Source: Limnoperna fortunei (taxonomy: Eukaryota; Mollusca; Bivalvia; Mytilida; Modiolidae). From it: a stretch of DNA of 64,000 bases. Numbering within the stretch: the first letter of the stretch is position 1; every line of letters begins with the position of its first letter. The stretch lies in contig OX104119.1 of NCBI GenBank assembly GCA_944474755.1, forward strand, positions 47,179,657 through 47,243,656, given 5' to 3'. A program made the translations under genes and the position numbers. Below the pieces are notes generated by a model. The model worked only from the letters and a program-made list of their open reading frames with translations, was not told the origin of the DNA and made no database searches. This document shows positions 13 through 24,350 of this stretch, piece after piece.

Positions 13-141
13 ATCAAAATAATTCATTTCCATGCAGTGAATGTGGACAGTCTTTTACATCCCTTGGTGGCATGAAGCAACATAGAACTAAAATGCACTC
101 TGCTTCTGTGGATAAGAAATCCTCAAATGGTTTGGCAGTTT
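13..141 (+). pseudogene. Broken C2H2 zinc-finger exon copy (3' end deleted)
   Basis: An acceptor-like CGTAG precedes a frame coding an intact CxxC...HxxxxH finger (CSECGQSF, then MKQHRTKMH), nearly identical to the exon at 1342. After NGLA the frame runs straight into a stop. Compared with the 1342 copy, about 46 bases containing the exon end and the GT donor are missing. It therefore cannot splice as the other copies do, unless it serves as a terminal exon. Confidence 0.7.
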
Positions 142-1341
142 AATTTTATTTGAGCAAAGTGTACATTTACGACTAAAAACTTTTATATCACACCTTTACA
201 TGGATAATCAAAATAAAATTTGATTAAAGAAAATTCTAAACTCAGATGGGCGACATGTTCTTCTAAGCTATTTCCCTAAAATTGGCGTCTACAAGTTTGG
301 CGTAGAGTTGAATCTACAAGAAACAACAAAGTCTGTGGAAAATCTTGTACCAGGGCGCTTTCTACCTAACAATTTTATTTTTAACAATAATGTTCGCATT
401 CAAACAAAAAAAATGTCGTGTCAGAGATGACATTATTCTGGCCAGGATTACCGATTACAATTATTTAGTCTCTAGTTCGTATAAGTGCACAACTGTACTT
501 GCCTTGAATGGATAACGAGTTCTTATGTTACCTAATTTATTTTAATGTTATCCCTCGGGGGATCCCTAGAAGCAGTAGAATACCTTTAATTCTTACTTAA
601 AATGTCCTTGATCAATTATTTATGTGTCATGTTTAAACTTGCTGCCTTGAAATTGCGAAAGTACATTTATTATAAATTTAAAGTTTGCCTCCAAAAAGTA
701 AAGATGGTCTCATCTACGCATAACTTTACATAATTTTGGTGCTGAAACTTTTTAATGTGTTGTTTTAAAACCTTCTATTGGTTTAAGGGTTCTACAATAT
801 TAATAGATGTATTTTGCAGCGTTTAAATAATTCATAGAACTAACATTTTTTCGCAGGGCACACATATTTCTAGTAATCCATTATTGGTCTCACACACCTT
901 TAACAAATTGCTCTGACCTCCTTTTAAATGATAATTATCTTTAAACTTGACAAAGATTTTACCAAGTTTAATCTTAAACATTGATAGTAAGCATGTATTG
1001 CATTAATTACGCTTATATTATATTGTTTTAATGCACAGTTTTACAGATGGTTCACATTAAAGCTTAGAGGCGAGATCACCATATGTTTGCCATTTATGTA
1101 CATAAAATAAATCATGACATACATATTCACAAAATTTGTAACACAAACCCTTCGACACAATTCAAACAAAAGCAACAATTAGACAAAACTAAAACAACAA
1201 ACAGTTTTCCGTATGTAATTTTAATGACCAAAGGCAATTTAAATCTTTGAAATGTGGGGTTATTTTGTAAATTTGTGCAGATATCTCTTGGACTCTTTAG
1301 TCATAGTGAAATTTTAATGTTTAATTCATTTTTCCGCGTAG
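142..1341. repeat. Intron spacer, part of tandemly duplicated zinc-finger exon unit
   Basis: No gene is seen here. Bases about 142-330 are closely repeated at about 1510-1705, and bases about 1020-1341 are repeated at about 2730-2962. The finger exons were therefore duplicated together with their flanking intron sequence. The middle part is AT-rich and unremarkable. Confidence 0.7.
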
Positions 1342-1503
1342 ATCAAAATAATTCGTTTCCATGCAGTGAATGTGGACAGTCATTTACATCCCTTGGTGGC
1401 ATGAAGCAACATAGAACTAAAATGCACTCTGCTTTTGCGGATAAGAAATCCTCAAATGGTTTGGCAGAAAGAGAAACATCCCTGGTAACATCTGATCGTA
1501 AAG
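1342..1503 (+). CDS. C2H2 zinc-finger exon A (intact)
   Basis: The acceptor is TTTTTCCGCGTAG and the donor AAAG|GTACAT. It is 162 nt long and symmetric phase 1-1. It codes one C2H2 finger (CSECGQSF...MKQHRTKMH, spacing C-2-C-12-H-4-H) followed by a polar linker with RETSLV. All four zinc ligands are present. It is a shorter linker version than the 195-nt copies downstream. Such a finger could bind nucleic acid or protein; which one cannot be told from sequence. Confidence 0.78.
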
Positions 1504-4500
1504 GTACATGCATCTGAACAAAGTGTACATTTGCGACTAAAAACTTTAATATCACATTTTAATTAAATTATCACACCTTTACATGGATAATCAAAATAAA
1601 ATTTGATTAAAGAAAATTCTAAACTCAGATGGGCGACATGTTCTTGTAAGCTATTTCCTTAGAATTGGTGTCTACTAGTTTGGCGTAGAGTTGAATCTAC
1701 AAGCAACATAGAACTAAAATGCACGCTGTCTCTGTGGGTCACAATAGTTCAATAACTAGTACGAAAGGGGACGATTTCTCCTCAAATGGTTCTCCGGAAA
1801 GAGAAACATGTGGTAAAACCTGATATTGAAGGTATTTTTTGTTAAATTTTATGCTTGTCATTCCAAAAGGTTTGCTTTTATTGCTATTTGCTGATGAAAC
1901 TGGTTGAGACAAAACTAGTGAATAGTGTGTTAAATTGTTAAACATGTACCTTTGTATTTTTGACTTTTTCACTAAACAATCTACAAGCGTGCTAACTGAA
2001 GAAACATAATCTTAACATAATCGTTGAAGAATATCCTGAAAGTTGAATGGTGTGAAATTTGTTTTGATGTATCTTGGATGATTTAATGTTTAATGCAATT
2101 TCTTAGTAGATCAAATTAATTCATTTCCAGACAATGAATTTGGACAGTCATTTAAATCTCTAAAAAGGCACGAAACAATATAGCAATAAAATTCACTTCG
2201 CTGTGGATACAGTTCAAATACCATTAAGTAAATTGACTTTTCTTCCTAAGGGGGCTTGACGGAAAGGAAAATATCCCTGGTAACACAAAATAATAAGGTA
2301 TCTGTATTGACCTATTTGATCACAATGTACGGAAAAAAGTGAATGCTTATTTTATATCTTTTTTTTGTCGAGTATAAATTCTGAGCTATTTCAGTAGTTG
2401 TTGAATCTGTAATTGGCGTCAGTACACAATTTTATAAAATATTTGTTTTGATATAGTTTGAAATGATAAGACTTCATTCTTGTTTAGTTGATAGATAGAT
2501 CAAAGATACCGATTATGTTATTAGACCTTTATTTTGACTGTGTTTTTCTTTTTGGATCAACCTATATTGTTTTAAAGGCTTCATGGCATAAAGAAAAAGG
2601 ATGTATATTCCATTTTTCAAAAAAGTTTTAACCTAATGTAGAATTAATACGTTCCCGCAATTTTTGTTGGTGACTAGGAATATTCTTAATATCAGATCGC
2701 ACAAACGTTACCTAGGATACTTTTTATGTGGTTTTAATGTGCAGTTTTACAGCTGGTTAACATCGAACCTTAGAGACGAGATCAACATATGTTTGCTATT
2801 TATGTACATACAATATTTCATGGCATACATACTCACCACATTTGTCAGACAAACCAGTTGACACAATCCAAACAAAAGCAAAATCAGACAACGCTAAACT
2901 ACAAACACTTTCCTGTATGTAATTTTAATGACACAAATCAATTTACATCTTTTTCTTAGTAGATCGAAATAATTCATTTCCACGCAGTGAATGTGGACAG
3001 TCATTTAAGTCTCCAAGGGGCATGGAGCAACATAGAACTAAAATGCACTCTGTCTTTGGTAAAAATAGTTCAATAACTAGTACCAAAGGGGACGAATCTA
3101 CCTCAAATGGTTCACCGGAAAGAGAAACATCCGTGGTAAAACCTGACATTCAAGGTATTTGTTTGTCTAATTTCTATTGAGAGGTGTTTGTCATTCCAAA
3201 AGGTTTGGTTTTAGTGCCACTTGCTGATGGGTCTGGTTGAGACGAAACTAGTGAATAGAGTGTTAAATTGTAATACATGTGCATTTACCTTTGTATTTTT
3301 GATTAGTTTAGTTCCGTTTAAATGCACATCTCTCTAAAAAATCTACAAGAATGCTAACTGAAAACCTTGTTAAATGCAATTTCTTGGTAGATCAAATTAA
3401 TTCATTTCCTTACAACGAATTTGGACAGTCATTTGAATCTTTTAAAAGGCCCGAAACAACAAAGAACTAACATTTACTTAGCTTTGGATACAGTGCAAAT
3501 AGCATTAGGATATTGGACGAACCTTCCTAAGCTGGCTTGTCGAATAGAGAAATATCCCTGGTAACACAAAATAGTCATGGTATTCGTATGGACTCATTTG
3601 GTCACAATGTACAGAAAAAGTAAATGCTTATTTTATATAGTTTGTCGTGTATAAATGCTGAGCTTTTTCAGCAGTTATAGAATCAGTAATTGGTATTGGT
3701 GCCAATTTAATAAAATATTTGCTTTGATGTGGTTTGACATTATAAGACTCGATTCGTGTTTAGTTGATAGATAGATTTAATCCGTTTCAATATAATGTAT
3801 ATTGGCATTCCTGTAAATGTATTAAAGGCATGAAGAAACATGAAACTGAAATATATTCTGTCTCTGTTAATCGTCAATGTGTAGCAACTAATGCGAAAGT
3901 AGAAAGTCCTTCATCAATTGGTTTGCCAGTACAAGAACAGTCAGAGGTATCTACTAATATTCAAGGTATGTTAATTGGTCTTTGGAAAGATACTAAATGG
4001 AATGTAAATTCCATTTAGAAGATTTTAATGTCGATTTAAAAGAAACTATATATATATGTCTGGTTTACAAACTAAATTCTAATACGTAGCATCATGCAAT
4101 ATATGTGGGCAGCCATTTGAATCTATAAAGCATACAAGAAATTAATTCGTCAGATACCGAGACATAAACCAAAGAACTAAATCCATATACGAATTTTGTT
4201 TGTATATGTTTCTTAAGGTCGTTTTCTCTGTTGTGCGTTTTGACTGCTGTAGTTAGGGAAATGGACAATACGCGGACTTTTGACTACGATTACGTCATTA
4301 GCTCATTTAAACTATACATTTCAAAGCCAAATACGCAGAAACAGTAGTTGGAAACTTCGCGAAAAAATGAAAATTTGAAAATGTTATTCTTCAAATTAAA
4401 AGAAACATAATTGCCTTTTGATGTTTTATTGTATTCTGTACCGTTACGCTTCTAGGGTGGATTAAAGGTGTTAAAAGTTTGTGTATGGGGGCCGCCATAT

Positions 4501-7500: not shown

Positions 7501-10500
7501 GTCCTTTATAAAGTTTATGTTTTTATGGCAATTGGAAATTCAAAATGGCCGCCAACGCCGCAGGACTTAGTTTAACATAGGACCCTATGGGCAAATAAAA
7601 ATATCTTCTCTATACAACCGGTTAACCAATGAAACAAAGCTTTCTAGTAATATTGTTTGGATGGTCCTATTTAAAGATTATTGAAAATTACAGGACTTAC
7701 TTTAACATAAGGGAAATGCCATCTTAATTGCTTATAAAATCAGGTGAGCGATACAGGCTCTTAAGAGCCTCTGGTTTACACGGTAAATTCAATGTAGAAA
7801 CTTAACCATTGAAAATATAATAAAACATCAAGAGGCAAAAGTGTTTCTTTTTATTTGAAGAATAACATATCAAATATTCATTTTTTCGCGAAGTTTCCCT
7901 TTAAACAAACAACTGTAACCACTGAACACTGAACAACCAATATGATATCCAGTGTTCACTAAGGATGAGCGTTTCCTGCTTCAATACTGACACATTCTGT
8001 GGCACTCTCCGGCACAGAGAACATAACTGGTTCCCAGATATAACCTTAGCCACACGTCATCCTCCATTTACTGCGTGACTTTATATGTCGTCTGCCCGTG
8101 ACGTTTGTAAACAAAGAACAATGTTTGTAAAATAATATAAGAGATTTTATTTATTTTTGTATGGTCTTTTTATACACTTTTGATATAGTTTTACATTGAA
8201 ATAACTGCGTTTGTACGCGAAGCGTATCCGCCATGTGAGATATCTCTCACAATGTCAACCAATGGTATGGCAGAGGTGATTGTGTTGACGTAGGATACCC
8301 AGAATCCTTTGCGTGGAGATTGATTCTGTGGTTGATAAGCAACTTAAAAATAGCCGTTACCGACCTTGTGACTCATAACGCAATTAAATTTAAATATATT
8401 GTTTTATTTATGGATTGACTGATCCAAATCTGTTAATTGGAACTATAATCACGACATGCTATTCTTTTATAATGTTTGAAGCATTCAATGACAAATTAAA
8501 TAATATTACATCATGTTTCAACCTATATTTGCATAACAGTATTGTTTTTTAAAAACTTTTTGATGGATTTCATTGCTTGCGTTTATTGACACCTACTGTA
8601 TCAATTCCTCCAATGGTGGATTGAGTTTGCTCCAACGGCGGATTGAGTTCTTGATATATCACTAGCAGAAATAGATTAACTTCGACTAATTGATTCATTA
8701 ATGTATATAGTCATTGTTTAAATTTACTGCCCTGGAATTGCAAAAGTGTTATAAATTTAAGAAATTTGTGTATTTCCTACAAAAAAGACGGCGAAGCTTT
8801 ATCAATAAAGTTGTTTTGAATCCAGCTAATGCATCATTAGCTGGATTAAAAATAACTTTATTGATAAAGCTTCAACGTCTTTTTTATATTACCGTCAAGT
8901 AGTTCGAGTTTAGTGACACTTACTGATGAGTCGTAGTAAAACGAAACGCGCGACTGGTGTAGTACACTGTTTGAACTTGGTATGAATGACTGATTTGTTT
9001 TGTTTCCATTGATAAATAATTTTACCGACCTTACAGTAAATAGAAAAAAACTAACATCTTTGAAGATTACTCTTCAATAGAATAGCGTGCAATATAGGTG
9101 TCTTTTGGATTATCAGTGTAAAAGTTAAAGTTTTACGCATTTTTATTGGTAGATCACAACAATCTATTCCCATGTAGTGAATGTGGACAGTCATTTAAGT
9201 CCTTAAGGGGCATGAAACAACATAGAACAAAAATGCACTCTGCCTCTATGGATCAACACAGTTCAAATACCTATAAAAATGGTGATGATTGTTCCTCATT
9301 TGGTTTAATTAGAAGAGAAATACTTCTCAAAACACAAGATAGTCAAGGTATATGTATTGATATATTTTTGTCACAATGTACCGAGATAACAAAACACTTC
9401 TTGTTATTTTTTTTATACAAAGGTACTATCTTTTGGCAATTGTAATCTGCAATTTATTTTCTTTCATATTTACTTTGAAGTCGAATCAGTGCTAATGAGT
9501 TATTAATAATGATGAGGTGTTATTAGAGCCCCGTCACTTTGTGGCGGACGCCCTATAGTATCCGCCGGCCCGTCCGTCCGTCGGTGCGTCGTATCCAAGC
9601 TGTAGCTTTTTTATCTTTTGATGGTAGGCTTTTGATATTTGATATGTGGGGTAGATAATAAAACGGCGATGTGTCGCATACCGTGGTTGATGTTTTTTGA
9701 CCTTGAACTTTGATCTGAAGGTCGGCGGGACCTAAAAGGATGGATGCCATCTCACATATATCAAGTTTAGTTATGCAGTTCGTAGTGATTTAGCTTCCAT
9801 TAACTTATTTTCGTTCACTTATATGGATTTAGTCATCGTTTTAAGAAAGCATTGTGGTATTGCTGTAGTCACTAATCTTGATGTTATTTTGCATGGATTT
9901 GATATCACATAAACTTTTATAGAATATCTCGGAGTAGACGAAATATATATTGCAAACTCAACATATTGATTAGAAATGAATTCTCATTGTCATAGAGAAA
10001 TATTTTAAACTTAATGTGGCCACATGTCCATTTGCTCTGTTCCCCACGACTTGGTATCCTCTAATCGGGAGTGGAATGAACTACTTTTTACAGATTTCTT
10101 TGCAAAATGCTGCTGTAATTTAAACCAAAGCTGCCATGGATATAACATTGCAATTTCTTCCATCGTAAGCAAATGCTATATCACCAAATTACTAAGAACA
10201 ATACCGCAACTGTTTCATTTTTCGTCGCCTAAAGTAACTCAAATGAGAACTGTAGGCTTGTTTAAACAAGACTAATGTGGATTTTGTTTATCTGTTCAAA
10301 TTTTGGTCTTTAGATACATATTGACCAACTAGAAGTTTGCGTGATGGGGATGGATGCTTTATTACTTTAAAACTTTATTTCATTTCGTATAACCTAACCC
10401 TCCTGTAATACACTTGTTGTTAAGAAAATAGAACATTCATAATTGTGTTGATAGTGGGACATCCGATACGGCCACCATCACTGCACGTACTTATCAAATA

Positions 10501-13500
10501 GCTGAACGGGAAACAAACTCAAAATTCTTTTTAAACAATATTTTGATATAATTTTATAATTCTAAGCATGGTGAACACTCTTAGTTACTGTAAATTCTCT
10601 TATCGGTATCAATGCACAATTGAATATAGTTACTTGTTATAAAATGCTAAGACTTTGAACTTGTTATGTTGACAGTCAGACATAATCCATTTCAATATAA
10701 TGTTATATTATAATCCTTCAAATGTATTTGACACGACGAAACATGAAACTTAATTGCATTCTATCTCTGTTAATCGTTATTTTGTAACAACAAATGTGAT
10801 AGCAAACGTTTCTTCATCAGATGGTTTGCCTGGACAAGGAGAGTCGAACGTATCACCTGATATTGAAGGTATGTTAACTGATCTTTTAACAAATACAAAT
10901 CATACTAAAAGGAATTTTAATTGCCGTTAAGAGACTTTCATGTCGATTAAAAAGACCTTTAAATTATAATATTCTGGATTACTTGACTTCCTGATTGATA
11001 ACACATTTGTAATATGTAGGACGTGGTTTTCAACAAACAGTCGGATTCGTACCATTTGTGCTACTCTTCTTGCTGACTTGTACTTCAATTTTACGTTCTG
11101 CTATAAAAATTACATGTTCTCGTTGAATAATGAAAAACATGCGGTGAATATGCTGATCGCATCTGCCCACTGAACACGAAATTCAGGACACTGAAGAGAC
11201 AGCAATATCTGCCTGATACTTTGACCTACATCTAGAAATGAACAATGAAAGTCGGTTGAGAACCAAAATTGAATACAAAATGGACGGTTTAAATTTTCTT
11301 ATAATTAAAAATTTTCCATGTTTTTGTGGCAACATTCCAGCAGCGCCTGGATTAAGAGAATACGTCTCCCGATTGGTAAGGTACTCCAAAGCCTGTAGTA
11401 CCTATCTAGATTCCCTTAATAGAAGGTGTCTGCTTATAGAAAAGCTTCTTAACCATTAATTCACAGGGGCAAGATTAAAGTCATCACTTAGAAAATTTTA
11501 CGGTCGAATAATGTCTGAGTTGACCGATACGGAATATCTTAGATTTGTTCCGTCTGTCGTAACCACTTTTGCTTTCTTACTAAATTATGTCTACCTATGA
11601 CGAGTAACCGGGATTCAAACTTGAGTACCACGGGTGCCACACTGTCGAGCAGGAGTTGCTTACCTTCCGGAGCACCTGGACGCACCCTTTATGTGGGACT
11701 CGTGTTACTCAATATTATGGTTTTTTGTGTTATGTGTCTGTTTGTATTGTGCATTCTTTTGTTTGACTTTGATTCTGTCTTTACTTTACCTATCGTTTTA
11801 TGATCAAAACTAAATATCTTTTTTTAATTACAAACTAAATCCAAATATTGCATCGTATTTCGCAATATATTGTAATATATCTGGACATTCATTGAAATCT
11901 CTAAGCACACAAGCACGTAAGATACGAAGACAAAACTCAGAGAACACAAATCCAAATACGAAATAACAATGTCACTGTCCAGCGTTTAACTCGCGAACAC
12001 AAAAGACAACAAAACTAAAACACCAATTCAACATAACATTCAACACTAAACTCTGAACAAAAGTGTGATGTCAGGTAGTCTCGAAGAACGCGCATTTCCT
12101 GCTTCAAAATGACACCTTGTGTGTTATTTGCGTTGAAAGTTAATGCGAGGTCATGAACGTGAGCAAGGAGGATTAAGGTACCTCAGAATATCCGTCATCA
12201 TCTTTATTTTCTTTATTTGTGGATCAAATTGGTTTATCAATTAAATAAAAAATTACGGATCAAAATATGTTTCTAACTATGATTTTGGATTGAATGCCAC
12301 TTACGGAGGAGTCTTGATAATACAAAACGCTCGACTGGTGTAGTTCAATTAATGTGGTTAATATTTTTAAATGTATTTCTGTTCCCATAAATATGCACAT
12401 CTAGCTGACCTTACAAAATTGATGCACGATCGCACTACAAGTTTTTGTTTAAACAGTAATTATCTATAATAAAATATGCCACTTTAGAAATAAATATTTA
12501 ACATTATCTTTGAAGAATACCCTGCAGTTGAATAGCGTGAAATTTGTATCGCTTATTTTGATGTCCTTAGCATGATCAATATATAGGTAATTTAATGCAT
12601 TTTTATTGGTAGATCAAAACAATTCATTCGCATGCAGTGAATGTGGACAGTCATTTAGGTCCCTAAGGGGCATGGAGCAACATAGAACTAAAATGCACTC
12701 TGTCTCTGTGGATCAACACAGTTCAAATACCAATAAGACATCGGACGATTGTTCCCCGGATGGTTTACCGGAAAGAGAAATATTCCTGGTAACACCTGAT
12801 ATTCAAGGTATATGTATTGATATATCAAGTCACAAATAAATACATGTTTTGGGCCCAAGTAAATACATGTTTTGCACCCAAATAAATACATGTTTTGTGT
12901 CTATATTTTTTTGAAACAAAGAAGCACAAACGCGTTTTTTGTTCAGCTCAATCGAATTCCTTTTAGGCTGTAAATCTACACTAAATGCATTCTTGTATAT
13001 GTTAATCGTCAACATAATAGCTCTATATAAACTAAACATGCTAAGTAAATAAGAAAACATTTAACATGACATGACCATGCAATCTTAAAAGCGTTAATTC
13101 AGATATGTACTTGCGTTGTTGTCTATAGTTTTAGTCTGTTTATTTGATCAAAAACTTTAAAATATCAATGGTACACTTAAACCATAATTATGTTGTATGA
13201 AATATCAAAACGGTTAAATTCCTTAAAAATATGTGACATTTTATATTTTTAAACATTAAATTTAATCATGCCAATAACATTTTGTTTACTTTTGTTATTC
13301 ATATTTAGCTCTTATGATTGATATAAACTGTTTTTGTTTTTGTCTATTTTCAGATCAACAGGCTATAGATTGTATTCAAAGTATGGATGATATGACAGTA
13401 CTGTACAGTAGAAGGGATTCGTTCTCGGAGGACGACAGCTTTCAAGACGGTACGTGCCCTTCTGTTTTCACTCTTACCCATTAAATAACAAATTTTTGAA

Positions 13501-16500
13501 AGTGCCTTTAAACACCAGTTTAACAAACTTACTAATCAGAAGTCCCAATATGATAGTAATATTTGACAATACTAATTTTTTTTTAAATTTTAGTTACAGA
13601 CAGGTTACATCGTTATATATTATACAATATATGACTTTGATATACAATATATGTCTTTGATATAAGTAGTTATCAGGATTTATCAGCCAGATTAAATGCA
13701 ATATTCACCGAGCCGCTATGCGAGGTGAATGCACATTTTTAAGGGCTGAGACAGATAGTTACCGCATATCACAGTCAATTTTTGCTTAATTACATGAATA
13801 AAATCACCATCTTCCTTCATCAGAAAAAACAGACTGACTGCTTACATTTTGTAATTGTTGTAATGCTGTTTTTCCTTAATATTTTCTGTTAATACTGCAT
13901 TATGCTATTAATTTGCTGATAATCCTGAAATTTCAGCTTCTTCACATTTCAAATATTAAAAAGAATTAAATAAATCAATAATTTATTTCTTACATTTTAA
14001 CAGTATATGGTATAATAACAGATGCTTCAATGACCACTAAAATTAAAGTTTATAGCTATGTTGAAACAATCATTAAAAACAGGCTTGAACCGATCAAAAT
14101 CAGGTCAATATTGGATTCAATTGATTACTGTGCAGCGAAATCGTGCGGCAGACGAAATTCCCCATACCTTTAAGTTATTTTAATACTGTTCCGATTTATC
14201 GTGACCCGTAAGTTGTTTTTAGACCATTCAAAAATACTCATGAGATAGTACTCATTAACCCTTAATGATCAGGATAACTAGAAGCAACTTATTCATTTCA
14301 TCTAAGGTTAACGTTTTGTTCTTATGCAATATCATACCATTATAGTTTATCTAGGGTTTCATTCGATAGAACTGCAATTCGGTCGATGCAATAGTATAGC
14401 ATCATATGTCATCTAAGCTTAGCACTCTGATAAAATTTTATTTTTGCTCTCATGTTAAGCTTTTGATAAGATTGGCTATAATAGTACACCATCAAATATC
14501 ATTTAAGGTTCTCCTTTCGATAAGGTTGACAGCTCGAGTGTTACTGAACACTCCAAACAAGTAAGCCATCGATATCAGTTTGCTATTTTTATTTACCTGG
14601 TGATAAAATTAATTAGACTGTAACTGAAACTGCTTAATTATTTTGAAGTCACCGGTCAAATAATCTAACTCTTTATAGTTCTTATGGATAAAAGTGCTAT
14701 ATCATTTTAATTATCATTTCTATGTGATAGACTTGAAAGAGAAGCGAAGCGACTATTAGTTCATATGATTTTCATTTGTCACCAGTAGAGTGAAACAATG
14801 TCTTACCATACTCATAATCGACTACGTTAATAATAGTTTAACATTAACTTAAAAAGCAGTTTTCTATCATATTTCAGTTCTACAGTGTAACGATTCTATT
14901 CAAAGTATGGACGAAACGACAGAACCATACAGCAGAAGTAATTCGTTTTGGGAAGATGACAGCTTTGAAAACGGTACGTTCACCTGGGTTTACACTATTA
15001 TCCATTAAACGGATCCGACAATATATTGCATTAGTCACAACATACGCCATTATCCATGAATATACATATTTATTGAATAGGTTTAGTATTGGTTATTTAA
15101 AGCAATTGAGCACTATTACAGATATAAGCAGAAAGAAAATAAGTTAGCAAACATTCAATTGGTCGGAAAACGAGCAGGACATGTTGACGACCACTAGAAA
15201 AGTATAGACTCTAAGGACAGAAAATTGTATCTTTTGTTGCTAGAAAAAAACCACCAGTATCTAAAGAATGTTTTTGTATGTTGGAAATGTGTCACAAACT
15301 TGCCCTTTGTTAACAAAAAATTTGTTAAAATACATATATAATATTAATATTTACACTTTCAGAACAACTAACAGACAGCAGAAAGATATCATCTCCCTTT
15401 TTTGACTGTTGTGACCAAAAACTGAACGAATTGAAACTAGCAAAGGGTGACGTTGGTACTGTGTCAAACCCTGTAATACGTTTTAGTGATATGGTCTTAC
15501 AGGAACTAAGGAAAAAAACACCAAATTGGGGATGGCAGCGATTTAACTCTGGATCGTATTACGATAGAACAAAGGTAACTTTATAAACATTTAGGAAAAT
15601 CAAAAGAATAGTTTTTTATGCTTTCATATTGATCGATTGATTTCAATTTGTTTACGGCGAGTCAGCAACCGTATTAAGGATGCCATCGCGTGTACGTATA
15701 ATGAGTTAGTTGGTATGTGATACAGTTCTGTGACGTATCTGCTAATAAACGGTTACTATTTCTAGGAAAAACTTGTGTAAGATGTGAATGGTTATTAAGT
15801 TTAAGCTTGTCTGTATTCCAAAACGAAAACAATTCTGAGATGCCAGACCAGATTTTTTAATCGGGTCTTGCCTGTGAATGCGAATACTTTTTCTCTTTTC
15901 ACGTTAATCCATCCACATTCATGAACGTTGTGTGCGTGCAAATGATGGACCGTTTCAGTGTCGTCTATATCATAGATTTCTGGATATATTTCTGGTCAGA
16001 ACTGAACATTAAAGACAACACAAAAAGATTCATCTTCATCATTTACTCTCGAATATATATGACACAAACGGTCATCTTACTACAAGTATTTACGACAAAC
16101 GAGGCGATTTTAATTTCACAATTATAAATTTTTCTCACTAGCAGTATTATAGCATCTTTGTGCATACGGTGTCTATATTTCTCAAATGATCATGTATACA
16201 CGAGATTGAGCGAGTATATTGATTTTAAAAAACGTCACCAATTTCTTCTAAACCAAGGGTACAAGGGAAAGACTCGTCCGCGCCTTTAATAAGTTTACCT
16301 ATAAAATACCATTGTATGGTTGAAAAAGGTTCAATCTCGTTTGAAAACATGATTGCAGATAGTTTCATAATTTTTGAATGAGTATTGAGCGACAATTGTT
16401 GGCTACTCCTATTTATTACTAGTAGTATATGATACCTATCCATTTTCCATTTTCATCAACAAACAAACTCACATACTACCATACTACAGTATACATTAAT

Positions 16501-19500
16501 AGAAATAGGAGATTTGGCATGCCATAAAACTTGGTTTAATCCACCATTTCCTTTGAAATATCTATAGAAAGTCATCCACTTTCTGTCATGAAATCGTCTT
16601 GGCTTAGAAGTTATATAAATGAATGTGAAAATGCGCTGTTATGCAATTTATACTTAATTTATGGTTACTAGACTGTTATTTAGACTTCATCCTTATGTTA
16701 AAGCTACACAATATTAATCTTCGATTATCACACTTCATTTTTTTATCTACAGAACAATCAACCAGACGAGTTTGACGTTATGTTCTATCCGAAGAACGTC
16801 TTAGTTGAGGTTGACTTTGATAACAGTGGAAATGTAGCAGGGTTTTATAAGGTTAAATTAAAATCGCCGAGGTTTCCAGTAATCCAAACATTCGCAGACA
16901 AAGATGGTTATATCACTCCAGGAAAGTTTAAGGCATATGTGTTTGGTTTATTTGATGAAGTAATGAAGTCTCCTGATTTCCGACCTAGCCGACATGTCAC
17001 TCGTAAGTATCACTTGCCTTGAAATAAAAATCCTAAATTCAATGCTGATTCACATACTACTGAAATTTGCATAAAAAACCCAGTCACTCTATTTTCTATG
17101 AAATTAATATAAATTGAATTCATTAAAACAGGACGATTGAGGACATTAGCTCAACAAAGAGGAAATATGCATACGCGTTCGAAACATTCTATATTGAACG
17201 TTAATATAACAGTTACCTTAATCCAGTGAATGAGATATGCATTAATACATGAGGGTTTTACTCTGGGATGTAGTTCTGTAAATCTGTATTTTTTCGTTTC
17301 CCGCCTTTGTATTTAGGTTATTGTTATAAAATAAATCATTTTAACGTAAGGATTTTATTTCAAGAATTTTTGTATTACTAAGTCTCATTTTATTTCTTTT
17401 TATAAAGGATTAAAGATCTCTTGTCTGTTATTATTGCAAGAATCAATATCGCTCATCTTAATAGGCTTTTGTACATAAATAATAGTCAATAGGAAGTGAA
17501 AGCAAGTCGGTATGATTTTTTATTCAGTTTTCAATAAAAGTATTAAAATGTTAAAACGATGAAACTTTTCTAACAATTTAGAATATGTATTTGCCATTTA
17601 TATTTATTTTGTGTGTGCAGGTCATGTTATTATTATATAGTAATATTTTTTCCCCATTGTATTTCATATAAGAATAAAGTGCAATATATTTACACATTTT
17701 TTACACTGAATCTCGGTCTTTTATGTAATTTCCGGGAAAAGTACAGATGTGTTCCGAACATCAGCTTTTATATTTTACTGTTGTTTAGTAAACAAACATG
17801 GCCGAAAATGACATACATGATCTGCTCTCGAGGGGAAAATTAGCAGAACCGCTTGAAACTGAACAAATGGAAGTGAATTCGATTGTCGATAAAAGTAAAA
17901 TTCGAGAATTCATGGACCAACAAAGGAAAAAATCGAGTGTAAACTGTACAAAACGGGATTTAAATATCGTGTACAAGTGGCTCGTTTCCAAGCAGGAATT
18001 TCTTCGTCCGTGTCGGGTACATACCAAATACATTGGATACTCTTACCGGCGCTTGTGGTGCAAGGATAACTATGTACAGGTGATGAAAAAGGAAGTATTT
18101 ACAGTGTGCAGTTACAAACAACCGGTATAGGCTACTCTCTGATGGTGATGGACTGGAGCCTGGTCTTGAAGTAGTCGACAGTTGAAGCATTGACTACCTC
18201 AGCTGGTAAAGAGTTCCAGATCCGAATTGAGTCAGGGAAGAAGGACTTTATATTCACAACAATAAGGAGCAACCAATAAAAACACAAACAAAATCTGTTA
18301 TTTTATTTACATCTACATCAAAATATATATCTGTAATATTGACCAAGTGAAAATATGATAATATTTGACCTAGTAAAATATTACAAAATAGCATAGATAA
18401 TGAATAATCACTTAAAAGCACCAAACAATTATTACTATATAATAAAAGGATTATTGCATGAATATTGGGAAATATTGTCCCTCGCAAGATGCTATATTGC
18501 ACTCGCAAGCTCGTGCAATATAACACTTTCTTGGAACAATATTTCCCAATATTCATGCAATAACCCTATAATATTACGTCAAATCGACCATTTAACTAAA
18601 TTAAGAGCTCAAACAAAAGATAAAATATATCAAAATTAAGCGTATTTTCTATCTTCCTCAAATTTCATTTACGGTTTTGTACAGTGACGAGACATATTTT
18701 CAGGAAAAGAAAGATCAGATGACAACAGTCCTGCATATACAATTGTATACCGCGGTATTCCAGGTAAACCAGTTGACATTGATCTGGTGCCATGTTTTAG
18801 AATAGAAGGTTGGCCACCTATTGCGAGGAAAATTGATCCTAAATGGATATCTCAAGATAACGTTATTAATAGGGCAACCAAATATTATGATGTTGTTTGC
18901 AAAACATGCCCCGATGGTAAGAATATTTTAATTTAGTATTGCTTTTATCATTTCAAGAAAACACTTTCACTTAAGAAACAAACAAGCAGTTGTATTATAC
19001 GTAGTTATTGATGATTTCGTTCATAATCCTATAAGATTAGAGTACTAAATAGCTAATATTGGCACTCAATTGTTTTACAGATTACGTGATTAATATTTAA
19101 TGTCCCGATATGGATTTACCTCTAATTATGACTAAGCACGACGCGTCTCATTAATAATACGGAAAATGCATACTTTCCTGTGGCATATGGTTTTCCTATA
19201 GGTTTTAATAAAAATAGAGTTTTTAATGTTTAGTTCTGTCATTCTGATGGGTTTACGTGAAAGTTATTTGGTATATTTTAGTGTTTTAGTGCAATAATCA
19301 TCAGTAACATTAAAAGTTTCAATTTTATTACTACATTTCCATTCAATTGGCATTTGTAATTTAAATGGAATATTTTTGTATTAAATTTGTATAATTTATG
19401 AGCGACACCTTTGTTTAGCTAACCTGACCCAAATTGTCATGTGAGCTATTGTTATGACTTTGCGTCCGTCGGCGTCGTCGTCGTCGGCGTCTATAAACGT

Positions 19501-22500
19501 TTTACATTTTAATCTTCTTCTCTGCAACCACTTGGCAAATTGAAACCAAACTTGGTCATAATGTTCATTGGATGGACCTTTACAAAGTGTGTGATTTTTA
19601 TTTTGGATTGGTAAACCAATATGGCCGCCACCTCAAGACTTATTTTAACATAGGACCCAATGGGAAAAAAGTTTAAAAGGGCTTCTTCTCTGAAACCGTT
19701 TAACCAATCAAAACAAAACTTACTAGCAATATTGTTTGGTTGGTCCTCTATAAAGTTTGTGTTTTTATGGCAATTGGAAATTCAAAATGGCCGCACCGCA
19801 GGACTTAGTTTAACATAGGACCCTATGAGAAAAAGTTTTAAGAGGCCTCTTCTCTGAAAACGGTTAATCAATGGAAACAATAACTTACTAGCAATATTGT
19901 TTGGATGGTCCTCTATAAAGTTGAGGTTTTTTATGCCTATTGGAAAATCAAAATGGACGCCACCGAAGCACTTAGTTTAACATAGGACCCAATGGGAAAA
20001 AGTTTTTAAAGGCTTCTTCTCTGAAACCGGTTAATCAATGGAAACAAAAACTTACTAGCAGTATTGTTTGGATGGTCCTCTATAAAGTTAAGGTTTTTTA
20101 TGTCTGTTGGAAATTCAAAATGGTCAACAACGCAGGACGTAGTTTAATATAGGACCCTATGGGAAAAAGTTTAAAAGGCTTCTTCTCTGAAATCAGTTAA
20201 CCAATCGAAACAAAACTTACTAGCAATATTGTTGGAAGGTCCTCTATAAAGTTTGTGTTTTTTAATGCAATTGGAAATTCAAAATTACCGCTACCGCAGG
20301 ACTTAGTTTAACATAGGACCCTATGGGAAAAAGATTTTAAAGGTTTCTTCTCTGTAATCGGTTAATCAATGGAAACAAAAACTTACTAGCAATATTGTTT
20401 GGATGGTCCTCTATAAAGTTTATGTTTTTTTATGGCAATAGGAAATTTAAAATGGCCGCCACCGCAGGACTTAGTTTAACATTGGACACTATAGGAAAAA
20501 GTTTAAAAGGCTTCTTCTCTGAAACCGGTTAACCAATGGAAACAAAACTTACTAGCAATATTGTTTGGATGGTCTTTTTAAAGTTTGTGTTTTTTTTTAT
20601 CCCAATAGGAAATTCAAAATGACCACCACCGCAGGACTTTGTTTAACATTGAACCCTGTGGGTAAAAAGTTAAAAATGGCTTCTTCTCTGAAACTAGTAA
20701 ACCAATCGAATCAAAACTTACTACCAATATTGTTTGGATGGTCCTTTATAAATTTAATGTTTTTTATGCCAATTGTAAAATCAAAATGGATGCCACTGAA
20801 AAACTTAGTTTAACATAGGACCCTGTGGGGAAAAGTTAAAAAGGCGTCTTCTCTGAAACCGGTTTACCAATGAAAACAAAACTTACTACCAACATGGTCC
20901 TCTATAAAGTTTATGTTTTTATGACAATTGGAAATTCAAAATGGCCGCCAACACAGGATTTAGTTTAACATAGGACCCTATGGGAAAATGTTTAAAAGGC
21001 TTCTTCTCTGAAACCGGTTAACCAATGGAAACAAAAACTTACTAGCAATATTGTTTAAATGGTCCTCTATAAAGTTTGTGTTTTTTATGACTATTGGAAA
21101 TTCAAAATGGCCACCAACACATGACTTAGTTTAACATTGAACCCTAAGGGAAAAATGTTTAAAAGGGCTTCTTCTCTGAAACCGGTTAACCAATCAAATC
21201 AAAACTTACTACTAATATTGTTTGGATGGTCCTTTATAACGTTTATGTTTTTTATGCCAGTTGGAAAATTAAAATTGCTGCCACCGCAGGACTTAGTTTA
21301 ACATATGACCCTATGGGGAGGTTAAAAAGGTGTCTTTCTCTGAAACTGGTTAACCAATGTAAACAAAACTTACTAGCAATATTGTTTGGATGGTCCTCTA
21401 TAAAATATATGTTTTTTATGACAATTGGAAATTCAAAATGGCCACCAATGCAGGAAGTATATGTAGTTTAACATAGGACTCTATGGGAAAAAAGTTTAAA
21501 AGGCTTTTTCTCTGCATGAAACCGGTTAACCAATCAAAGCAAAACTTTCTAGCAATATTGTTTGTATGGTCCTCTATAAAGTTCATGTTTTTTATCCCAA
21601 ACGGAAATTCAAAATGTCCGCCACCGCAAGACTTGGTTTAACATTGGGCAGTATGGGAAAAAAGTTTAAAAAGTTTTCTTCTCTGAAACCGGTTAACCAA
21701 TCGAAACAAAACTTACTAGCAATATTGTTTGAATGGTCCTTTATAAAGTTCATGTTTTTATGCCAATTGGGAAATCAAAATGGACGCCACCGAAGGACTT
21801 AGTTTAACATAGGACTCTATGGGGTAAATAAAAAAAGCGTCTTCTTTAAGACCGGCTAACCAATGGAAACACAACTTACTAGCAATATTGTTTGGATGGT
21901 CCCCTTTGAAGTTTATGTTTTTTATGCCAAAAGGAAAATCAGAATTGCCATCACAGCATTACATAGATTAATAGTAGACCTTATGGAAAAAAGTGTTATT
22001 AGGTTTTTTTCTGAAACTGATTAACCAATGGAAACAAAACTTACTGACAATATTGCTTAGATGGTTTTCTTTAAAGTTTATGTTTTTTAATTGCCAATTG
22101 GTAATTCAAAATGGCCACCGCCGCAGGACTTAGTTTAACATAGGACCCTATGGGCAAATAATTTTTTTTCCGGTAAACCAATAGAAACAAAGCTTTCTAG
22201 TAATATTGTTTGGATGGTCCTATTTAAAGTTGATTGAAAATTACAAGACTTACTTTAACATCAGGGAAATGCCATCTTCATTGCCTATAAAATCAGGTGA
22301 GCGATACAGGCTCTTAAGACCCTCTGGTTTAGGAGATAAATTATATTCAATTTGTATAAATTTTTATTATTAGGAATATTTTGGCATTTCAATGCAGTAA
22401 TACCCTATTTTCCATTCAATTGACATTATTTTTTCATTTATATGGAATATTTTTATTCATTGGGTATAATTTATACTGCATATATATAAAACATAAGTCA

Positions 22501-24161
22501 TACATAAAATTATACCAATTAAATATGTTTTTGACATATAAATGAAAGATAAATAATATAAATGAAAAATTATACCAAGTAAATATAAGATTCTAGATAT
22601 CAATGAAATTATAAAATTATTGCAATAAGTACCATACAAATGTTTTGCACATGTTTGCAACAATAGGTTTAATTTAGAATATCTTCACATTCAAAATCAA
22701 ATGAAGCTATTGTGAAATTGATTGCAGGTTTTTCCATGTATATGTGTATAAAGGAAATATCAAAATGTATAACATATCAATGCTTCCAACACAATTGATT
22801 GGTTAACTGACTGATTGAAAAAATGTATGGTTGTTTATCTTTACTATCTTTTGTCTTCCATTTGGTATCCATACAATAATAGACTACTTGACATCATCAC
22901 TTGGAGCTGGGTACTCTTAGGCATGTCTGTGTGTCAAGCCATGAGAAATCGAACGAACCTCCTATACAGAACAAAAAAAATTCGTTAATATAACCAATAT
23001 CAGAATTTTGAGCATCTATAGAATTGTGTTTTGCCTTACTGAAAATAAGCTGGAATCATTCTGACTGGGTTCCCAGAGTTTGACTCATAGAACTGACCTG
23101 TGCGTCTCCGTGTGGCATAAATGGGTTGTCCGTTGGGGTATTTCAGCATTTTACTACGAAAAGCCCGACCTCAAACCAGAGTTTGAATCGTACCATGCTT
23201 CTTGCAAGATAAAGAGTCCTTTTTAGATTCGTAAAAGAGTATGCTGATTGTAGCTGCTACAAAAAGCTAAATTTGCGGTTTTCACCAATACACCATATCT
23301 TTCCATTTACGGTCAAAAATATTTATCCGTAGGTCAATCGTTCTGAATATAGCTGAATGAATGCTCGCTAGAGGGTACGCTAAACATTAAGGCAACGAGC
23401 TCATATTTATGATACGGATCTGTTTGTCTGAGGTTTCATCCCACACCACATAATTCGTCAGCAAACAATGAAATCAAGACATCATCTTGAGAGGAGTTTG
23501 TATGAAAGTCGAACACACCGAACAGTTGCAATAAATCAGATTTACGTCAGTGTTGACTAAACTCTTTTGAATGTCGCATAATAATTTCTATACCTTAAGA
23601 CCTATGCCAAATTGCTTAAAGTGGTTTTTGTTATATGGATCTTTTACCGCTTATTCGTTTTCAGCTGAAATACAAATCGATATATTTGCATTTTGCGTCG
23701 TTTTTCTCCTAGCTTTCCTTGTTCAGTTGGTTTTTATATTTTCAGATGTCACGGATGCAAATTCCCTCTGGAGACTATCTTTTTCGTACACGGAGAAAAA
23801 ACTCATCAACTATGCTGCAGATAAAAACAAATCTAGCACAAAGAAAAAGGTCTTCAAGATAATGAAAAGTTATATAGAAGATATAAAAGCTCAACATCCT
23901 AACAAGGTTAAGAAATTTTGTGCGTATCATATTAAACATTTTATGCTTTACCAATATGATGACTGGAGAGATGCGAAGAAGTCTACAACAACATGCAGTC
24001 TTCTTAAGAAACTTATTAGTATGCTTTCAAGTTCACCTCCATTTATTGAAAACTATTTCGTAATAAACGATAATGTCGTACGAAATGTTCCTATGCCTGA
24101 AATAGAATTAATTGTAAAGTGTTTGCAAAACGAATACATGGAACTACATAAGAAACTTTAA
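1342..24161 (+). CDS. Zinc-finger / cGAS-like nucleotidyltransferase gene, 3' part (5' end outside window)
   Basis: This is a multi-exon gene read from GT-AG boundaries and matching phases. The exons I support are 1342-1503, 2963-3154, 3771-3965 (divergent), 9153-9347, 12613-12807, 13354-13449, 14878-14973, 15363-15574, 16753-17002, 18704-18916 and 23746-24161. The N-terminal part is a series of single C2H2 fingers. Next come two similar acidic/serine exons, then a Mab-21/cGAS fold. That fold has GSYY, EFDVMF at the same spacing as in human cGAS, a third aspartate in PVDIDLVP, and WRLSFS. Known members of this family make cyclic dinucleotide second messengers after sensing nucleic acid. Activity and ligand here are inference. 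The initiator methionine and promoter are not in the window. The C2H2 part could in principle be a separate gene, but every junction from the fingers to the catalytic exons keeps frame. Introns are loaded with repeats. Confidence 0.82.
1675..1831 (+). pseudogene. Partial zinc-finger pseudoexon
   Basis: It begins within a copied spacer (GAATCTACAAG) that is fused directly to the second half of a finger (QHRTKMH). The CxxC half is absent. A 2-nt loss before the GAAG|GTATTT donor relative to the 2963 copy shifts the frame. It is a recombination or deletion product of the exon array. Confidence 0.6.
2110..2297 (+). pseudogene. Decayed zinc-finger pseudoexon (second type)
   Basis: The TTAGTAG|ATCAAATTAATTC start and the GGACAGTCATTTAAATC core match the finger exons. 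The first cysteine codon has become aspartate-like, the second phenylalanine-like, and there are internal stops. A close relative lies 1.28 kb downstream at 3391, in keeping with a repeated unit of about 1.3 kb. Confidence 0.6.
2490..2620 (+). pseudogene. Decayed copy of the divergent third exon type
   Basis: The upstream TAGTTGATAGATAG tract and later fragments (TATATTG, TTAAAGGC, ATGGCATAAAGAAA) match the exon at 3771, about 1.29 kb downstream. The reading frame is lost. It marks the third exon of the repeated unit. Confidence 0.45.
2963..3154 (+). CDS. C2H2 zinc-finger exon B (first Cys replaced by Arg)
   Basis: It is 192 nt, phase 1-1, with acceptor TTTTTCTTAGTAG and donor CAAG|GTATTT. 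The frame is open throughout. The finger reads RSECGQSF...MEQHRTKMH, so the first zinc-binding cysteine codon TGC has become CGC (arginine). The fold would be expected to be lost or weakened, yet splice sites and frame are kept. The linker (SSITSTKGDE...) is rich in Ser, Thr and acidic residues. Confidence 0.7.
3391..3579 (+). pseudogene. Decayed zinc-finger pseudoexon (second type, copy 2)
   Basis: TTCTTGGTAG|ATCAAATTAATTC and GGACAGTCATTTGAATC show its origin. Both cysteine codons are lost, stops interrupt it, and the donor is altered (CATG|GTATTC). It pairs with the pseudoexon at 2110. Confidence 0.6.
3771..3965 (+). CDS. Divergent exon of the finger family with lost zinc ligands but open frame
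   Basis: It is exactly 195 nt, like the intact finger exons at 9153 and 12613, and phase 1-1. The acceptor is TTGATAG and the donor CAAG|GTATGT. The frame is open. Aligned without gaps to the 9153 exon, both cysteines and the last histidine are tyrosine here; only the first histidine (MKKH) is kept. The linker keeps GL and the final IQG. It may be a retained non-zinc module or a recently silenced exon. Confidence 0.5.
4090..4143 (+). pseudogene. Short CxxC finger-half pseudoexon (fourth type)
   Basis: TACGTAG is followed by a frame with SCNICGQPF and a stop 12 codons further on. The CxxC half resembles the finger exons and the second half is missing. A related fragment lies at about 11860-11950 in the next unit. 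Confidence 0.45.
4350..4430 (+). repeat. Left arm of long inverted repeat
   Basis: It runs from GGAAACTTCGCGAAAAAATG to GATGTTTTATT and is the reverse complement of 7818-7898 with a few mismatches. Confidence 0.7.
4611..5242. repeat. 316-bp direct tandem duplication
   Basis: The segment starting GAATATTAAAACTGTGGCG at 4611 recurs at 4927 with only a few differences. It ends in the shared text GGTTGTATTGTCCACGG. High identity suggests a recent event. Nothing in it looks coding. Confidence 0.85.
5243..6503. other. No gene recognised
   Basis: This is AT-rich sequence within the composite insertion. Short ORFs here have no recognisable motifs and no splice context. I see nothing else to annotate. 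Confidence 0.5.
6504..7775 (+). mobile_element. Tandem-repeat transposable element (pearl / Helentron-associated type), copy 1
   Basis: The left end has a perfect hairpin (AGCTCACCTGACCC AAA and its complement, 6507-6537), then CGTCGGCGTCGTCGTCG. About seven core repeats of roughly 167 bp follow, each with CTTCTTCTCTGAAAC, ACTTACTAGCAATATTG and TTTAACATAGGACCC. The right end has hairpin AGGCTCTTAAGAGCCT followed by CTGG. Bivalve pearl elements and Helentron-type non-autonomous elements share this plan of core tandem repeats with a terminal hairpin. Assignment to that class is inference. Confidence 0.65.
7818..7898 (-). repeat. Right arm of long inverted repeat
   Basis: It is the reverse complement of 4350-4430, ending TTCGCGAAGTTTCC. 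Confidence 0.7.
8000..8330 (+). repeat. Dispersed repeat family P, copy 1
   Basis: It runs from the GCACAGAGAACATAACTGG motif to GGATACCCAGAATCC and includes GAGATATCTCTC. A copy in reverse orientation lies at 60105-60355, and an internally deleted one at 58085-58175. Type unknown. Confidence 0.65.
8331..8780. other. Intron, nothing recognised
   Basis: AT-rich intron of the zinc-finger/cGAS-like gene with no ORF or motif I can support. Confidence 0.5.
8781..8885. repeat. Near-perfect hairpin (about 50-bp arms)
   Basis: AAAAAAGACG...AATCCAGCTAATG is mirrored by CATTAGCTGGATT...CGTCTTTTTT with a very short loop. On a transcript of this intron it would fold into a long stem. Confidence 0.85.
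9153..9347 (+). CDS. C2H2 zinc-finger exon C (intact)
   Basis: It is 195 nt, phase 1-1, with acceptor TTTTTATTGGTAG and donor CAAG|GTATAT. The finger CSECGQSFKSLRGMKQHRTK then MH has all four ligands at C-2-C-12-H-4-H. A linker of about 35 residues contains DQHSSNT and GDDCSS. The same length and the same flanking intron text as the 12613 exon show they are duplicates. Confidence 0.78.
9515..9770. repeat. GC-richer repeat end with CCGTCCGTCCGTCGG tract
   Basis: The text from AGAGCCCCGTCACTTTGTGG through the CGTCCGTC run to TTGACCTTGAACTTTGATC resembles the start of bivalve dispersed elements that carry core repeats. No core repeat array follows, so it looks truncated. Confidence 0.4.
9771..10675. 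other. Intron, nothing recognised
   Basis: There is no supported exon. The ORF at 10024-10275 has no motif, no matching splice phase and no repeat of the finger pattern. Confidence 0.5.
10676..10868 (+). pseudogene. Decayed copy of the divergent exon at 3771
   Basis: CATAATCCATTTCAATATAA and the GAAG|GTATGT donor match the 3771 exon. In-frame stops interrupt it (for example within TTATATTATAATCC). It shows that the divergent exon was part of the duplicated unit. Confidence 0.6.
11183..11815 (+). mobile_element. LINE retrotransposon 3' end (5'-truncated)
   Basis: A frame from about 11238 reads like the reverse transcriptase C-terminal tail found in invertebrate LINEs: NFPCFCGNIP, then YVSRLVRYSKACSTY, then LLIEKLLNH, a stop, and a continuing KSSLRKFYGRI segment in another frame. 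The untranslated tail (ACACTGTCGAGCAGGAG, then GGAGCACCTGGACGCACCC) also fits a LINE 3' region. Only the tail inserted, so it is dead on arrival, as is usual for LINEs. Confidence 0.65.
11855..11955 (+). pseudogene. Decayed fourth-type finger fragment
   Basis: ATTGTAATATATCTGGACATTC and the CACACAAG text align with the fragment at 4090-4180, but the cysteine codons and frame are gone. Confidence 0.4.
11960..12612. other. Intron with array-unit spacer
   Basis: Bases about 12290-12420 repeat the spacer upstream of exon C (CGACTGGTGTAGT at 8949 and 12329) and resemble 3205-3330. This marks it as duplicated unit sequence. No gene is seen. Confidence 0.5.
12613..12807 (+). CDS. C2H2 zinc-finger exon D (intact, last finger)
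   Basis: It is 195 nt, phase 1-1, with acceptor TTTTTATTGGTAG and donor CAAG|GTATAT. The finger CSECGQSFRSLRGMEQHRTK then MH has all ligands. The linker contains DQHSSNTNK and ends VTPDIQG. It is the last finger before the acidic exons and joins them in phase 1, making an aspartate codon across the junction. Confidence 0.8.
12836..12897. repeat. Minisatellite, about three units of 27 bp
   Basis: The AAATACATGTTTTG core recurs three times, separated by GGCCCAAGT- and CACCCAAAT-like spacers. Confidence 0.8.
13354..13449 (+). CDS. Acidic/serine exon 1 of duplicated pair
   Basis: It is 96 nt, phase 1-1, with acceptor TCTATTTTCAG and donor GACG|GTACGT. It codes 32 residues with the pattern D-IQSMDD-YSR-DSF-EDDSF. 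It aligns without gaps to the exon at 14878. There is no known domain. The serine and acidic pattern could be a linker or a phosphorylated docking segment; that is inference. Confidence 0.75.
13613..14245 (-). mobile_element. Palindromic 0.6-kb element family A, copy 1 (minus orientation)
   Basis: It is the reverse complement of elements at 29679 and 60651. Shared marks are the TATTCACCGAGCCGCTATGCG hairpin, ATCAGGATTTATCAGCC, a middle TAACAGAAAATATTAAGG tract (here in reverse), and CGATTTATCGTGACCC at the far end. No ORF; a non-autonomous element. Confidence 0.7.
14246..14877. other. Intron, weak tandem similarity only
   Basis: There are loosely repeated stretches of roughly 130 bp with CATCTAAGGTT and GATAAGGTT-like text (about 14280-14530). 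No exon or element is recognised. Confidence 0.4.
14878..14973 (+). CDS. Acidic/serine exon 2 of duplicated pair
   Basis: It is 96 nt, phase 1-1, with acceptor CATATTTCAG and donor AACG|GTACGT. Its 32 residues share D-IQSMDE-YSR-NSF-EDDSF with the exon at 13354 and differ elsewhere, so the duplication is not recent. It leads in phase into the first catalytic-domain exon. Confidence 0.78.
15363..15574 (+). CDS. cGAS-like domain exon 1: N-terminal helix and GS motif
   Basis: It is 212 nt, from phase 1 to phase 0, with acceptor TTACACTTTCAG and donor AAAG|GTAACT. It begins with a linker (EQLTDSRKISS) and a helix-rich lead-in, and ends with FNSGSYYDRTK. The G-S pair is the nucleotide-binding GS motif of the cGAS/Mab-21 superfamily. 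The 13-residue step from this glycine to the first catalytic glutamate in the next exon equals that of human cGAS. Confidence 0.85.
15575..16752. other. Intron, nothing recognised
   Basis: AT-rich intron between the GS-motif and ExD exons. The ORFs here (15921-16127 plus, 16225-16443 minus) lack motifs and splice context. Confidence 0.6.
16753..17002 (+). CDS. cGAS-like domain exon 2: catalytic ExD
   Basis: It is 250 nt, from phase 0 to phase 1, with acceptor TTTTTATCTACAG and donor GTAAGT. It opens NNQPDEFDVMFYP: the E and D of EFD correspond to E225 and D227 of human cGAS, which bind the catalytic metals. The rest (VEVDFDN, FYKVKLKSPRFP, then a long helix ending in SRHVT) fits the core sheet and spine of the fold. 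No change at a key position is seen. Confidence 0.9.
17003..17797. other. Intron, nothing recognised
   Basis: AT-rich; no exon or repeat that I can name. Confidence 0.5.
17798..18050 (+). pseudogene. Possible Crypton/QRICH-ZMYM-type N-terminal domain fragment
   Basis: An ATG-started frame reads MAENDIHDLLSRGKL... followed by IREFMDQQRKKSSVNCTKRD and IVYKWLVSKQEF. This helical pattern resembles the N-terminal core-binding segment of Crypton-type tyrosine recombinases and the host genes derived from them. After about residue 70 the similarity ends, and the frame closes at 18130 with no catalytic part. It sits in an intron of the cGAS-like gene. A chance ORF or the first exon of another gene is possible. 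Confidence 0.35.
18128..18252 (-). mobile_element. LINE reverse transcriptase C-terminal tail fragment (minus strand)
   Basis: On the minus strand a frame reads KSFFPDSIRIWNSLPAEVV, then ASTVDYFKTRLQSITI and a stop. The RIWNSLP...FKxRL pattern is the usual end of many LINE ORF2 proteins. Only about 40 residues remain. Confidence 0.65.
18436..18577. repeat. Long inverted repeat (about 45-bp arms) in the intron
   Basis: TTATTGCATGAATATTGGGA with its flanks is mirrored by TCCCAATATTCATGCAATAA. The centre (TATATTGCACTCG...CGTGCAATATA) is itself palindromic. It is a fold-back element or fragment. Confidence 0.85.
18704..18916 (+). CDS. cGAS-like domain exon 3: third catalytic aspartate
   Basis: It is 213 nt, phase 1-1, with acceptor CATATTTTCAG and donor GATG|GTAAGA. 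It contains SPAYTIVYRGIPGKPVDIDL: the first D of VDID aligns with D319 of human cGAS, completing the metal-binding triad. Then follow VPCFRIEGWPP and a short run to KTCPD. Joined to the last exon it gives a junction the same length as in vertebrate cGAS before the WRLSFS motif, so no exon appears to be missing. Confidence 0.88.
18917..19413. other. Intron, nothing recognised
   Basis: AT-rich. The end (about 19320-19400) resembles 22420-22480 on the far side of the inserted tandem-repeat element. Confidence 0.5.
19414..22326 (+). mobile_element. Tandem-repeat transposable element (pearl / Helentron-associated type), copy 2
   Basis: It has the same ends as the element at 6504, with a decayed left hairpin and a right end GGCTCTTAAGACCC-TCTGG. 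About 16 core repeats of roughly 166 bp separate them, against about seven in copy 1. Frames through the repeats give repeated peptides that are by-products of the array. It fills most of the last intron of the cGAS-like gene. Confidence 0.68.
22327..23745. other. End of last intron; no gene recognised
   Basis: Bases 22340-22680 are very AT-rich. Bases 22860-23520 are of more balanced composition but show no motif I can name. The frame at 23571-23745, open into the last exon, is intron: a good acceptor (TATATTTTCAG) ends it at 23745. Confidence 0.5.
23746..24161 (+). CDS. cGAS-like domain exon 4: C-terminal lobe and stop
   Basis: It starts in phase 1 after TATATTTTCAG and ends at TAA. WRLSFSYTEKKLI matches the cGAS WRLSFS motif, which contacts the nucleotide. 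KVFKIMKSYIEDIK, FCAYHIKHFMLYQ and the LLKKLISML...ENYF helices match the C-lobe in order. The vertebrate zinc-thumb (His-Cys-Cys-Cys just after WRLSFS) is replaced by YAADKNKSSTKKK, as is usual for invertebrate cGAS-like receptors. The lysine-rich stretch could serve ligand binding; that is inference. Confidence 0.9.
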
Positions 24162-24344: not shown

Positions 24345-24350
24345 AATAAA
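24345..24350 (+). terminator. Polyadenylation signal of the cGAS-like gene
   Basis: AATAAA lies 184 nt after the stop codon, a normal 3' UTR length. No competing canonical signal is closer. Confidence 0.6.

Follow-up and report, generated by a model that had tools for sequence, protein, structure and literature searches.

The combination of a Mab-21 domain and zinc fingers in one protein has a described precedent in CgcGAS of Crassostrea gigas (Qiao et al. 2021, PMC8218723). CgcGAS was cloned from cDNA, with primers designed on XM_034454330.1, and comprises 590 aa, in which SMART finds a Mab-21 domain and three zinc finger domains. The protein binds dsDNA and poly(I:C). Its knock-down was reported to bring CgIFNLP, CgIRF1 and CgIRF8 down to 0.39-, 0.40- and 0.41-fold, respectively, while the reported expression of CgSTING and CgTBK1 did not drop, and the authors do not put these two downstream. 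It was suggested, in the discussion only, that the zinc fingers help in nucleic-acid binding. The recombinant protein runs as a band of approximately 58 kDa, which is smaller than we expect for 590 residues (PMC8218723).

Concerning the cGAS-like receptors (cGLRs) in general, Cv-cGLR1 responds to dsDNA with the synthesis of 2'3'-cUA (Li et al. 2023, PMC9980059), and the structure 8GJW is given as a cGLR of C. virginica (PMC12424679). Fusions of cGLRs to ankyrin, TPR or death domains are known, and some bivalve genomes are reported to hold more than 200 cGLR genes (PMC9980059). The word "zinc" has no occurrence in the main text of Li et al. 2023, and a zinc-finger cGLR is named in no title or abstract opening that we found in the open-licence literature, where such an absence proves little.

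Here, we describe a locus of Limnoperna fortunei that is best read as encoding a cGAS-like enzyme which carries a zinc-finger module at its N-terminus. The window, i.e., the whole stretch of DNA analysed, comprises 64,000 nucleotides of contig OX104119.1, and all positions are counted from its first base.

Gene model and catalytic part

On the forward strand, finger exons, acidic exons and four catalytic exons follow each other in this order. Our joined model takes in the finger exons fB, fE, fH and fJ, the acidic exons ac1 and ac2, and the catalytic exons c1 to c4; it leaves out one finger copy that is open but has no zinc ligands (fG) and five that are broken or cut (fA, fC, fD, fF and fI). 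The result is a frame of 675 residues without a stop, in which all junction phases match, as the first-pass annotation had stated; the phase is 1 throughout, except for phase 0 between c1 and c2. Since the array touches the first bases of the window, the 5' end and the start codon of the gene lie beyond view. At the other end, a possible polyadenylation signal, AATAAA, lies 3' of the stop (24345..24350, forward strand).

Profile searches for Mab-21/cGAS and C2H2 domains, which the first-pass annotation had proposed as a check, bear out its domain assignment. On the joined model, Mab-21 scores 87.6 bits (1.5e-24) and Mab-21_C 31.2 bits (2.5e-7), each with a Pfam cut-off of 24.1, and the C2H2 profiles are likewise above their cut-offs, with 53.3 bits for zf-C2H2_4 (cut-off 27); the single finger exons score slightly under the C2H2 cut-offs. 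A search of the NCBIfam profiles gave one match only, RecO, with 14.2 bits at a cut-off of 48.7. In a scan of viral contigs, three stretches fitted a pattern, none of them a relative.

The four catalytic exons are all located on the forward strand. Exon c1 (15363..15574, phase 1 to 0) carries the first helix and the GS motif, c2 (16753..17002, phase 0 to 1) the catalytic pair EFD, c3 (18704..18916, phase 1-1) the third catalytic Asp, and c4 (23746..24161) the helical Mab-21_C part together with the stop codon. Joined in phases 0, 1 and 1, they yield 363 residues that end at this stop. The model matches 42 PDB sequences at E up to 1. The top match is 8gjw, "cGAS-like receptor 1" (212.8 bits, 8.2e-62), and numerous cGAS chains come next. 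The GSYYDRTK motif and the VDL-type Asp motif are common to both catalytic parts, but the matched chain (355 aa) represents the enzyme alone. Chance open frames were rejected as an explanation, as c1 to c4 align one after the other with a single PDB chain and the finger cores are constrained (see below).

The catalytic residues are GS 376-377, E389, D391 and D492, the last of which was set by the alignment with 8gjw and cGAS. According to Li et al. (PMC9980059), cGLRs show a G[S/G] loop and an [E/D]h[E/D]...[E/D] pattern with 50-90 residues between the second and third acid. Loop and triad are present in our model, as are the Mab-21 nucleotidyltransferase core and the C-terminal helical part; the 100 residues between D391 and D492 exceed the printed range. 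Thus, of the earlier claim that GS, ExD and the third Asp stand at cGAS spacing, the residues hold and the spacing departs from the published limits. In the alignment, both acids fall on their counterparts in 8gjw and cGAS. In human cGAS, approximately 91 residues separate the two acids, so that the printed limit has to be taken as loose.

Sequence matches to vertebrate cGAS (E about 1e-22 to 1e-15) indicate that the catalytic folds are homologous. In contrast, the vertebrate-type zinc thumb, with the motif H-x5-CC-x6-C, has no match anywhere in the catalytic part. The N-terminus of vertebrate cGAS is disordered and basic; our model has fingers instead. Calculated by part, the pI is 8.12 for the fingers, 4.05 for the two acidic exons together and 9.19 for the catalytic part, and it is because of the acidic linker that the whole model reaches only 7.79. 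Nucleic-acid-sensing cGLRs are described with a pI above 8.5 (PMC9980059), computed by another algorithm than our 9.19. The enzyme appears to be active, and by analogy with its relatives we predict that it makes a cyclic dinucleotide on ligand binding.

The introns and the neighbourhood of the gene contain further features. Two clusters of tandem repeats of roughly 167 bases are located in its introns (6585-7552 and 19496-22163); their related flanks, 7631-7789 and 22184-22342, are 93% alike, and a single mobile element, present twice, may account for both clusters. The intron between c2 and c3 contains open stretches at 17792-18127 (forward) and 18132-18302 (reverse) that show no Pfam match; by eye, the latter resembles the end of a reverse transcriptase. 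Downstream of the gene, 32488-33098 and 36472-36780 (forward) are related open stretches with weak DUF7587 matches (E 4e-4 and 8.4e-6, below the Pfam cut-off); one begins like a secreted protein, and the pair are probably tandem copies of one gene. Remains of a DDE_3 transposase, Tc1-like by eye and in two pieces, are found at 34127-34855 (reverse; 4.3e-8 on 34127-34654). At 45966-47019 (reverse), two overlapping frames match DDE_1 (3.6e-14) and HTH_psq (6.5e-5) and suggest a transposase relative that is apparently frame-broken. A tandem series of near-identical open stretches follows at 50149-55003 (forward), and 59346-59891 (forward) is an exon of a sodium:dicarboxylate symporter family (SDF) gene (2.5e-24).

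Finger exons and acidic exons

Where the first-pass annotation proposed an N-terminal C2H2 array, we count ten copies of the finger exon on the forward strand, between base 13 and base 12807, of which four are open and spliceable, one is open without zinc ligands, and five are broken or cut. The four usable exons, fB (1342..1503), fE (2963..3154), fH (9153..9347) and fJ (12613..12807), are all of phase 1-1. Three of them encode a complete C2H2 finger with all four zinc ligands; fE carries Arg in place of the first Cys. In the joined model, the complete fingers have the form C-x2-C-x12-H-x4-H and occupy residues 8-29, 126-147 and 191-212.

Decay has affected the other copies in different ways. 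The copy fA (13..138), which the window includes from just before its first base, holds a complete finger and is then cut, with no donor and an in-frame TAA; it is 96.8% identical to 1342-1467. The first half of the finger is missing from fC (1702..1831). In-frame stops and the loss of the zinc ligands mark both fD (2110..2300) and fF (3391..3582), the ends of which are approximate, and an in-frame stop is also found in fI (10737..10868, limits approximate). The copy without zinc ligands, fG (3771..3965; tblastn match 3770-3964), is open in phase 1-1. Stretches within 1-3800 repeat at a distance of 1276-1383 bases, and we conclude from this that the array grows by local duplication. An intronic direct repeat of 195 bases (4603-4797 and 4919-5113, 99% identity) is either a very recent duplication or an assembly artefact.

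The finger cores are under purifying selection and represent real coding sequence, since dN/dS (NG86) within the first 30 codons of the four open exons lies between 0.09 and 0.36 in all six pairs; here, each pair offers approximately 17 synonymous sites, which is little, the pairs are not independent, and the copies may exchange sequence. The spacers of the same exons give near-neutral values of 0.60-1.28. DNA identity between finger exons shows the same pattern: it is 0.83-0.91 for the finger part and, with gaps scored as differences, 0.50-0.77 for the remainder of the exon. The 40 bases 5' of the acceptor give 0.62-0.75, and the 20 intron bases next to the donor 0.40-0.90; from base 21 to base 80 of the intron, identity is 0.47-0.58, compared with means of 0.48-0.56 for shuffled sequence. 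The constraint is thus centred on the finger and weakens along the spacer.

In helix numbering, the four copies agree at the contact positions -1, 3 and 6; at position 2, three have Arg and the fourth has Gly. A sequence-reading, diversifying DNA code was rejected for this reason. The linkers between the fingers are 32, 42 and 43 residues wide, and with such linkers and near-constant base-contact positions the fingers do not appear to form a classical DNA-reading array. When a profile of the four finger exons was compared with the PDB, 10 sequences matched at E up to 0.1, all of them named as zinc-finger proteins and none nearer than ordinary C2H2 fingers; the designed zinc-finger protein Aart is among them.

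Two acidic exons, ac1 (13354..13449) and ac2 (14878..14973), both on the forward strand and of phase 1-1, lie between the fingers and the enzyme. They are duplicates of each other (exon identity 0.77, dN/dS 0.37). Each includes an ATG flanked by A (-3) and G (+4), which could start a finger-less protein.

One gene or two, and the role of the fingers

Exon c1 has its first Met at residue 44, and as its open frame offers none further upstream, the enzyme needs an upstream exon. If translation began at one of the ATGs in ac1 or ac2, the locus would give rise to a finger-less cGLR and, separately, to an upstream finger gene or a decaying array. Such a division, which we regard as rather improbable, would be in line with the many broken finger copies and with the fact that 87% of cGLRs are described without an added domain (PMC9980059); CgcGAS, with both kinds of domain in one cloned cDNA (PMC8218723), speaks against it. 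The splice signals, judged by a rough matrix, can be read both ways. Finger-exon acceptors (83.6-96.7 percentile) and donors (93.4-94.9) fall below the sites of the acidic exons; the acceptors of c1 and c3 are low too (87.0 and 77.7), and ac1 has a strong acceptor (99.1 percentile) that would be needless for a first exon. A gene end between fJ and c1 is possible, given an excess of ATTAAA in this interval (8 versus 3.6 expected; AATAAA, 4 versus 3.5), but only 546 bases separate fJ from ac1. The constraint on the finger cores and the matching phases argue for continuity as well, although the phases carry little weight, since the finger exons are duplicates of one another, as are the acidic exons; we estimate that they amount to about two independent matches, each with a chance of roughly one in three. 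Taking these features of the sequence together with CgcGAS, which is the strongest support, fingers and enzyme probably belong to one gene and one mRNA.

That the finger array, or perhaps the whole locus, is losing its function seems very improbable to us. The state of the array would suit such a loss, with five of ten copies broken or cut, one without ligands and one without a Cys, and so would at least 12 kb of repeats in the introns; yet c1 to c4 all have open frames and retain their catalytic residues and splice sites, and the finger cores are constrained. A serious rival, even if an unlikely one, accepts the fused gene and assigns the fingers another task: they would bind a protein partner or set location and oligomerisation, and the catalytic domain alone would sense nucleic acid. 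Single fingers on linkers of 32-43 residues with near-constant contact positions fit such a role, and a catalytic part with a pI of 9.19 is basic enough to bind nucleic acid alone. Against this reading stands the link that the CgcGAS authors draw between zinc fingers and nucleic-acid binding, as a suggestion in their discussion (PMC8218723).

A probable finger-bearing sensor and its relation to CgcGAS

The explanation that we prefer, and hold to be fairly probable as a whole, is that of a single gene with its 5' end at or outside the window edge, which would encode a cGLR whose N-terminal region carries single C2H2 fingers, set far apart in a row and joined to the cGLR core by a short acidic linker. 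Fingers and basic catalytic domain would together grip double-stranded nucleic acid; instead of recognising a base sequence, the fingers would supply extra contacts and avidity. We favour such general binding because finger spacing and invariant contacts are unlike those of sequence-reading arrays. Binding would then lead to synthesis of a cyclic dinucleotide by the enzyme and, along the lines proposed for CgcGAS, to an antiviral response via STING or a parallel IRF pathway. For activation, product and downstream route we infer by analogy from the published accounts of Cv-cGLR1 (PMC9980059) and CgcGAS (PMC8218723). Tandem duplication would generate the finger exons as interchangeable cassettes of phase 1-1, many of which decay.

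The CgcGAS precedent makes the fusion reading likely, and at the same time it undercuts the suggestion of the first-pass annotation that the gene may stand for a distinct class of innate receptor, as Mab-21 and zinc fingers were already paired there (PMC8218723). This precedent concerns the pairing of domains, not the type of finger or the end of the protein at which it is located. CgcGAS leaves approximately 230 residues beside a 360-residue enzyme, which would fit three finger units of about 64 residues as found here, by arithmetic and not by alignment. The known fusions to ankyrin, TPR or death domains likewise combine a cGLR core with a recognition or interaction module, but the added domain is another one than here. 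Judged by these comparisons, the gene appears to be a further member of an already described kind of virus sensor rather than a new class. What is new is the exon-level picture of one finger per symmetric exon, with frequent duplication and frequent decay; set beside the published description of CgcGAS, broken exon copies and a doubled acidic exon are described only from this window.

We tentatively extend this picture, in a reading that we hold to be unlikely, to finger cassettes that turn over fast and vary in copy number: each would be one finger in a phase 1-1 exon, gained by block duplication of about 1.3 kb and lost by decay. Varied inclusion of such cassettes could tune the grip on nucleic acid, and the valency of the sensor might differ between individuals or species. 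The exon arrangement suggests a route by which a zinc-finger cGLR of the CgcGAS kind may be built from duplicated one-finger exons. If true, this would be a simple way to alter the binding module of a second-messenger sensor while its enzyme remains untouched.
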